In this document: piece by piece, positions 31,772-34,287 of the stretch | Position numbering within the stretch: position 1 is the first letter of the stretch | How the letters are laid out: each line of letters opens with the position of its first letter | NCBI GenBank assembly: GCA_016720595.1 | Contig: JADKKI010000042.1 | Coordinates: 1 to 64,000 of the forward strand | Source of the DNA: Myxococcales bacterium | Lineage (GTDB): Bacteria; Myxococcota_A; Polyangia; Haliangiales; Haliangiaceae | Direction: 5' to 3' | DNA: 64,000 bases | Made by a program: the position numbers and the translations under genes | The notes under the pieces: model-generated | What the model was told of the DNA's origin: nothing | The model's input: the letters and a program-made list of their open reading frames with translations, nothing else | Database searches by the model: none

Positions 31772-34287
31772 ATGGGCGCCGTGGAGCCTGTCTCGGTTCA
31801 GTTCGCTATCCTCGCGGTCACGCGGGGTGCGGCGTCCGTGGACCCACCCGAGCTGGCGATCGCCGGTCAGCGCGCCACCGCGGCGGGTCACAAGATCGTC
31901 GCCGAGAAGACGATCACGGATGACGAGGGCGCGATCCGCGGCCAGCTTCAGGCGTGGATCGCCGACGCCAGCATCGATGTGGTGCTGGTGCTCGCCGGCG
32001 CCGACACCGACGCTGCGGCGAAGGCGCTGAAGCCCCTGGTCTCCGAGGTGCTGCCCGGGTTCACCGATCTGTTCCGCTGGCTGATGTTCCAGGAGGCAGG
32101 AGCTTCCGCGATGCTGTCCTCCGCGGAGGCCGCGCAGTGTGACCGGGCGATCGTGTTCGTGTTGCCGGGAGCGATCGCGGCAGCGATGGACAAGCTGATC
32201 CTCCCGCAGTTCGATCCCAGCACCACGCCGCGGAACCTCGTCGAGAAGCTGCCGCGGCTCCGGACCGAACCGCAGGCCACCGAGCGAGCGTCCACCGATG
32301 TCGAGCAGGCGGTGCCGCAGGCGATCGAAGCGGAGAAGACCCAGGGCGGCTCGGGGCTCCCGCAGCGGCTCCCCGCGGTCCCCGCTCCGCGGCTGCGCTC
32401 TCGGACCGGCGCGAACGTGATCCATCGCGAGCAGCCCACCGATGATCCCACCAAGCCGATCGATCTGATGCAGCTCGAGAGCGAGCTCGCCGCGAGCGGC
32501 GCCGCGAACGACGATGCGACGCGCCCCATGCTGCCCGCCGCCCCACCAGGCGCGGATCCGGAGAGCTATGCCCCGGACCGCGACGACGATCACACCGATG
32601 TGACGCTCGCCGCGCCTCCTCCCCCAGCGCTGTATCCGCCGCGCACGGGTGGGATTCCCTCGATCGCGAAGCCGGCGAAGCGCAACCCCACCACACCTCC
32701 GCCGCGAGGGACCTCCACGCCGGTCCGCCCGGCGCCGGTGGTCTCGGCGTCACGGCCCACCACCAGCACCCAACCGAAGCCGGCACTGCGCCGCGACGCT
32801 GGAACGCCCGCCACACCGCTGCCCGCCGTCACGATCAATCCGCGCAGTCGCGGTCTCTCCCCGCAGCCGCCGGTCGAAGCTGTTGCGGCGGCGACGCCGC
32901 GTACGCTCACCGGTCCGCAGAAGGCTCTCGAGGCGCAGCGCGCCATCGACGCGCAGAACGCGGCCGAAGCCAGGAAGCGTGCGCTGACTCCGAAGCCGAT
33001 CGCGATCAAGCCTGTCGAGGTCAAGCCCGTCGACGTCAAGCCCGTCGACGTCAAGCCTGTCGAGGCGGCGAGCTCGCGGGTGTCGACGAGCGTCGATGAA
33101 GATCAGACCGTCGATGGCGTGATGCCCGTGACCGCCAGCGCGGTCGATGCCGCGGAGGCGATCGGTGCGATCGGTGCGATCGAGACGCTCGAGGCCACCG
33201 AGCTCGAGGACGCCGACGACGCTCCGGCGCAGGTTGCCTCACCGCCCGGCCCGACACCGCGCCCGCTCACCGAGCCACCACCCACCCCGGCGAAGCGGCC
33301 GATCACCGAACCGCCGCCTGCTCCTCGCGCGCGCCCGGCCACCGAGCCGCCGCCGAAGGTCCTGCCGGGAGCCCCGCCGGTGGCCCGGGCGACCGCCGAG
33401 CCTGCGCCAGCGCGCGCCGCGAAGCGCACGCCCACCGCACCACCACCGAAGTCCGCCGCCGACGACCTCCCACGCGGCAACTTCGCGTATCCGGTCAAGA
33501 AGCGGAGCGGCAGTGTGCTGCTCAAGCTCCTCGCGTTCGCGGCGATCATCGGTGTCGGCTTTGGCGCCGTGGTCCTGATCTTCCGCGACGACGGCGCGGC
33601 GCCCGCCAAGCCCACGCCCACGCCAGTGGCGACCGCGCTTCCGACGCCGACGCCGACGCGACGCCAGCACCGGTCAACCCGGACCCCGAGATCGAGATGG
33701 AGCCGACGCCGACGCCGACGCCGACGCCGACGCCGACGCCGACCGCGGGCACGACGGACCCGAAGCCCCGCCCGCCGAAGCCGCCCACGCCGCCGCGCAC
33801 GGGTAGCGCCAGCGGTAGCGGTAGCAGCGCCAGCGGTAGCGACGCCAGTGGGAGCGATGCGTCTCCGGTCACCAGCCCCACCCCCACGCCACCCGCGGAT
33901 GCGGCCGTGGTCGCCGTGGCCGATGACTGCGACGAGACCGCGTGCGTGCTCTCGAAGTACGAGCGCGCGTGCTGCGCGAAGTACAAGCCGGCGACCACGG
34001 ACTTCAAGCCGCGCGTGGGCGATGTGCCCGAATCCCTCGACAAGTCGATGGTGCGCGCTGGCGTCGAGCACGTGAAGCCGCGCGTCGTGTCGTGTGGCGA
34101 AAAGTCCGGCATCAAGGGCACGGTGAAGATCGCGATGACCGTGGCGCCGGACGGCTCGGTGGGAACCGCGTCGGTTGCGGATGCTCCCGATGCCACCCTC
34201 GGGGATTGCGTCCTGGCGGCGATGCGCTCCGCGAAGTTCGGCAAGACCGTGAACGGCGCGACGTTCACGTATCCGTTCGTGTTCTAA
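31772..34287 (+). CDS. MoaB/MogA-like domain-TM-AgmX/PglI-tail fusion protein, one frame change
   Basis: About 838 residues after one single-base repair. Residues 1-155 match the MoaB/MogA fold (QLQAWIADASIDVVLVLAG, LPGFTDLFRWLMFQEAGASA, VFVLPGAIAAAMDKLILP). The molybdopterin-binding GGTG motif is AGAD here, so enzymatic activity is doubtful. A long Pro/Ala/Thr-rich region follows, then a membrane helix near 581-604 (LLKLLAFAAIIGVGFGAVVL) and an AgmX/PglI tail (VKPRVVSCGEKSG, IKGTVKIAMTVAPDGSVG) ending YPFVF. One base is missing near 33661 in a CCGACG repeat: before it the frame reads LPTPTPT, after it PEIEMEPTPTPT. The tail would be extracytoplasmic and the MoaB-like head cytoplasmic. Confidence 0.85.

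Follow-up and report, generated by a model that had tools for sequence, protein, structure and literature searches.

A membrane helix links a MoaB-like domain without its GGTG motif to an AgmX/PglI tail in a family of Myxococcota proteins

We analyzed a 64,000-nucleotide stretch of a Myxococcales contig (JADKKI010000042.1; hereafter the window), in which a single-domain response regulator (31355..31741, + strand; Pfam PF00072, 58.5 bits) is followed by a head with a MoaB fold (residues 1-163; 31772..32260, +), a linker, a single transmembrane helix (33527..33583, +; hydropathy 2.73) and a tail ORF in a second frame (33697..34287, +). Within the head, Asp50 (31919..31921, +), presumably the counterpart of MogA D49 in the alignment, aligns with the Mg-coordinating Asp of molybdopterin (MPT) adenylyltransferases, and a shortened loop reading AGAD (31994..32005, +) occupies the site of the GGTG motif. 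The linker carries a conserved block 3' of the head (EKTQGGSG ... TGANVI ... PTKPIDL helix; 32303..32497, +), whose helix was predicted at residues 232-241 of the structure model, and an LPxxPPGAD motif (32531..32557, +). A zone of frame change lies in a Pro-Thr-coding hexamer repeat (33640..33690, +), and the predicted periplasmic tail (33922..34284, +) consists of a CDExxC..CC cap and an AgmX/PglI (TonB C-terminal) domain. PF00994 was the sole Pfam match of the head ORF above its cut-off and, together with the structure model, it assigned the head to the MoCF_biosynth fold; the MoaB model TIGR02667 gave 102.7 bits, below its cut-off of 222.4. The tail scored 41.6 bits with NF033768 (AgmX/PglI C-terminal domain), above the cut-off of 40. 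An earlier note on this DNA had described a MoaB/MogA-fold head reading AGAD for GGTG, and the PF00994 match and the structural match to MoaB bear out this part of its observation, which as a whole is confirmed partly. Elsewhere in the window (29164-29499, +), a short protein consists of an AgmX/PglI tail alone after a hydrophobic start (NF033768, 75.1 bits), and a partial homologue of it is present at the same place in a related locus, L001.

Searching with the window head among proteins of similar length yielded 95 proteins, of which 92 have a membrane helix and 89 a tail like that of the window. A tail match was missing from the other six (P0022, P0041, P0062, P0065, P0067, and P0074). Source names tell the organism for 12 of the 95 proteins: eight Kofleriaceae, a family placed in Myxococcota, order Haliangiales, one Myxococcales, one Deltaproteobacteria, and two soil metagenome. 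Thirty-two loci came from scanning genome contigs; seven of them (L001-L007, from records titled Myxococcales, Kofleriaceae or Deltaproteobacteria) encode extended heads without GGTG; the tail is within the same ORF in four, and three run off the contig. Among 192 relatives of genome G002, with the matches of the other genomes partly fetched, 12 (G001-G011 and G015) could be confirmed to encode such heads. The tail was seen in eight of these, and a contig end cuts the ORF in G003, G004, G010, and G011. Four of the 12 genomes hold more than one such gene (three in G007, two each in G001, G006, and G015), and each of G001-G007 has a free GGTG-bearing MoaB beside the GGTG-less extended head. We conclude from these sequences that the fusion is a conserved family in Kofleriaceae-related Myxococcota. 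The source names of 24 of the 95 proteins, 'molybdenum cofactor biosynthesis protein B' (15) or 'molybdopterin adenylyltransferase' (9), are likely wrong. Heads at L094, L096, and L112 are more degenerate. At L095 (1-2031, -) the fused head is missing the conserved helix and the SAMLS region, with the remainder well conserved, and L093 and L110, in which the EKTxGG linker block is absent in the alignment, belong to a second fusion clade.

GGTG occurs in none of the 95 proteins, which were chosen by head similarity and length, and in none of 120 after a tail search was added. The presence of a C-terminal extension served as a label independent of the motif: among 79 distinct locus heads, GGTG is present in all 60 that end near the C-terminus versus one of the 19 with a longer extension (63/63 versus 1/35 with duplicates included). 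In 11 of these 19 the tail lies within the same ORF, and in six the sequence is cut by a contig end; the other two are the window and L030, the sole longer head with GGTG, in which this tail is absent. GGTG is shown by computation to be missing from all of the fused heads with this tail that were examined. The 95-protein count and the C-terminal-extension counts are the independent tests of the motif, since for the tree and the site count below GGTG itself decided which loci were called free and which fused, which makes the GGTG row circular for loci. At L030 (9893-11110), the GGTG-bearing MoaB carries an extension of ~240 residues without a match to the tail profile.

Other sites separate the two kinds of head as well. 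In a count over 135 fused rows (120 proteins plus 15 locus or window rows, partly the same gene) and 61 free heads, with 19 duplicate loci and locus heads of short profile coverage set aside, the Arg of a motif we call SRA is found in 0/135 fused versus 59/61 free heads and the Gly of a motif we call LPG in 11/135 versus 61/61. Both labels were taken from our alignment, and we assume that the motifs have a role in binding. The Mg-type Asp is present as Asp in 122/135 fused versus 52/61 free heads, and an Asp in FTDLFR is found in 130/135 versus 0/61. The GGTG loop of fused heads is shortened, with a variable remnant (GG, AG, GV, G-, AS). Excerpts of PMC3896444 describe the Asp as coordinating Mg in MPT adenylyltransferases, and GGTG as involved in ATP hydrolysis and in coordination of the MPT-AMP diphosphate. 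Retention of the Mg-type Asp in most fused heads leaves room for ligand binding, a point against the reading we prefer below.

The best structural match of the head model was MoaB, which shows, for this one computed model, that the MoaB fold is retained despite the loss of the motif. The earlier note had raised orthologues with GGTG and a better match of the head to an unrelated fold as points against a pseudoenzyme; neither turned up (0/95 for the motif, and MoaB itself as the best match). In a tree of 89 heads (55 fused and 34 free rows), which has a midpoint root only and a bootstrap that is not settled, all of the fused heads fall to the same side of a 100/100 branch. This computation shows common descent of the heads, and the tree is consistent with one origin of the fused ones.

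Three-frame translation and comparison with relatives placed the window head and tail in different frames, with the change at about 33640-33690. In tblastn searches, the head and the tail of the window are matched in two different frames by single ORFs of relatives, and eight further ORFs of relatives show no jump against the window (of these, two overlap each other on opposite strands). On a third point that the earlier note had raised against its reading, separate genes for head and tail, the outcome is mixed: the two parts constitute a single gene in the relatives and occupy different frames in the window, whose own copy, as read here, is frameshifted or mis-assembled 3' of the membrane helix. 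Between the window and L001, dN and dS are 0.16 and 0.63 for the head and 0.11 and 0.46 for the tail; these computed values show purifying selection on the compared codons of both parts and mark the frame event as recent or as an assembly error. It is possible, though we lean against it, that the window copy is a truly broken gene, from which a head-helix piece would be made without the periplasmic tail. Such a break would explain the frame change, and in P0062, P0065, and P0067 (three of the 95 relatives, judged on protein sequence) the tail match is likewise missing after the helix, where unrelated-looking sequence follows. However, the tail codons still look as if under purifying selection, the eight other ORFs show no jump, whole-unit slippage in a six-base repeat preserves the frame, and an assembly error is just as possible. 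The repeat unit also led us to reject phase variation through slippage, and programmed frameshifting seems unlikely, as the relatives have no need of a frameshift.

A helix exceeds the same hydropathy threshold in 117 of 120 relatives, three being without one, and LPxxPPGA is found in 97 of the 120 related proteins with the head. No Cys lies between head and helix in any of 117 proteins, 114 of the 117 have at least six Cys among their last 135 residues, and K+R are more numerous on the N side of the helix in 78, the weakest of the three topology signals. This distribution of Cys and K+R agrees with a head in the cytosol and a tail in the periplasm. By analogy, LPxxPPGA(D) might hypothetically be a GYF ligand: in the accessible text of PMC5657617, PPGF is reported as the ligand of the GYF domain of plant PSIG1, from which the motif differs by Ala at the fourth place. 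A linker motif common to GltJ-like proteins and the family was rejected, as the profiles of the two linkers did not match (hhalign probability 0.24 percent, E 0.25, 8 columns).

Nine zinc-ribbon plus GYF (GltJ-like) proteins share the tail, including the CDExxC..CC cap. In a tail tree of few columns, with a bootstrap that is not settled, a 100/100 branch sets their tails and the fusion tails off from two others, of which one is GltG-type, and the fusion tail is by this computation kin to the GltJ-like tails. On the window tail ORF, however, the NCBI model for GltG (NF033760, 31.7 bits versus a cut-off of 650) outscores that for GltJ (NF033761, 17.8 bits versus 450), both far below cut-off, which counts against the GltJ grouping. 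The named control genomes gave weak matches in 4/14 (GltJ model) and 2/14 (tail model), none above cut-off. In structure comparison the tail fold matches the C-terminal domains of TonB and TolA. AgmX/PglI tails are abundant, with 21-44 matches per genome in 12 genomes, so tail kinship is a weak guide to function. Locus L153 (G002:C64) has adjoining ORFs with AgmX/PglI domains, four matches falling within ~2 kb.

We compared the ORFs around 17 fused loci and the window by all-against-all BLAST (E 1e-10); several of the 17 loci hold little upstream sequence. At this threshold, L001 was the only one of the 17 in which a response regulator turned up at the corresponding position, and the other neighbours of the window gene within ~2.3 kb are likewise common to L001 only. 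L002 and L095 have matches to more distant genes of the window, and L093 and L110 have a shared neighbourhood of upstream genes of their own. A conserved operon as a general system was rejected at this threshold, because the neighbours recur only in L001. The response regulator that the earlier note had pointed to upstream is real (PF00072), but because it is found at this place in one of 17 loci it probably lies outside the system.

The note's author had also stated that they knew of no described system with this architecture, a statement that should be narrowed. The plan itself of module, helix, and AgmX/PglI tail is already known from GltG and, with other modules, from GltJ; the dead MoaB module is the new element. 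GltJ/AgmX and GltJ-like proteins combine a cytosolic module, a disordered linker, one helix, and a TonB-type periplasmic tail, as the family does, but GltJ has a zinc ribbon and GYF where the family has a MoaB domain (Pfam found neither in the window head ORF). GltJ motifs and MglA reportedly were the subject of a 2024 study. GltG/PglI also consists of a cytosolic module, helix, and AgmX/PglI tail, but its head is FHA, which Pfam did not find in the window head ORF; the GltG-type tail falls across the 100/100 branch, yet the GltG model gave the higher score. MoaB/MogA molybdopterin adenylyltransferases share fold and descent with the family head, which differs in lacking GGTG, in scoring below the TIGR02667 cut-off, and in being fused and membrane-bound. 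The G domains of gephyrin and Cnx1 are catalytic and are not known to carry a TonB tail. Mycobacterial MoaB2, in the part of PMC11656743 consulted, is a hexamer with the MoaB fold and an unlikely role in Moco synthesis; it binds protein, as proposed for the family head, but its partner is sigma A in the cytosol and, unlike the family, it has no membrane part. The same excerpts give gephyrin G and Cnx1G as trimers and MoaB proteins as trimers or hexamers, and report that E. coli MoaB is not needed for Moco. A two-hybrid test reported in PMC3169522 showed GltG to bind the motor protein AglR, and PMC12288465 gives GltJ as an effector of MglA. In a literature search, whose coverage leaves out many subscription papers, none of the titles listed concerned a fusion of MoaB with TonB or AgmX, and no paper on MoaB with pseudoenzyme was returned.

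Taken as a whole, the interpretation in the earlier note is partly supported. Its central proposal, that a pseudoenzyme head is tied to an envelope tail through a membrane helix, has good support. Our best explanation, which we hold with about even confidence, is a GltJ/TonB-like single-pass inner-membrane transducer, in which, as the computation shows, a cytosolic module, a long Pro-rich linker, a membrane helix, and a Cys-capped TonB-type periplasmic domain follow one another. The module is a MoaB copy that has lost its cofactor/ATP motif; catalytically dead on this reading, it would probably act as a scaffold that forms trimers or hexamers and binds protein, by analogy with MoaB2 and the gephyrin G domain. 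The head may set the clustering or recruitment of the protein, the helix could couple to a proton-driven motor of the ExbB/AglR type, and the tail could touch a periplasmic or outer-membrane partner. Any link to gliding would be drawn from tail kinship alone. The protein might instead pass energy to outer-membrane transporters in the ordinary manner of TonB, with no connection to gliding and with the head as a cytosolic oligomeriser only. The match of the tail fold to TonB and TolA agrees with this, but the tail is nearest to zinc-ribbon/GYF proteins and not to the other AgmX/PglI proteins of G002, and we find such a role somewhat doubtful.

We consider it unlikely that the head is a sensor, with a pocket that is remodelled rather than abolished and through which the level of another nucleotide or pterin would control the tail. 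The retained fold and Mg-type Asp would suit a sensor, as would the fused heads' own signature, such as the FTDLFR Asp; the shortened GGTG loop with its variable remnant speaks against it, and the LPGS loop and the SRA Arg are lost too. More speculative still would be a head-swapped GltJ, in which the gliding machine, or a sister machine of the envelope, has the MoaB pseudoenzyme as an alternative cytosolic receptor, one that clusters in groups of three or six and joins GltJ by docking LPxxPPGAD on its GYF domain. That the head still senses molybdopterin or Moco, tying molybdenum supply to the envelope, is very improbable: descent from MoaB and the kept Mg-type Asp would allow it, but GGTG, with the roles ascribed to it in PMC3896444 as excerpted, is absent, and a separate GGTG-bearing MoaB is present in all seven genomes checked. 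As E. coli MoaB is reportedly dispensable for Moco, that free copy is not necessarily the enzyme either.

On the preferred reading of a transducer with a dead MoaB module, an old cofactor enzyme would have become, in one bacterial lineage, the module on the cytosolic side of an envelope transducer, kept there under selection. This suggests that the cytosolic heads of GltJ-type transducers are exchangeable, and it would add to MoaB2 a lineage-wide case of MoaB repurposing.
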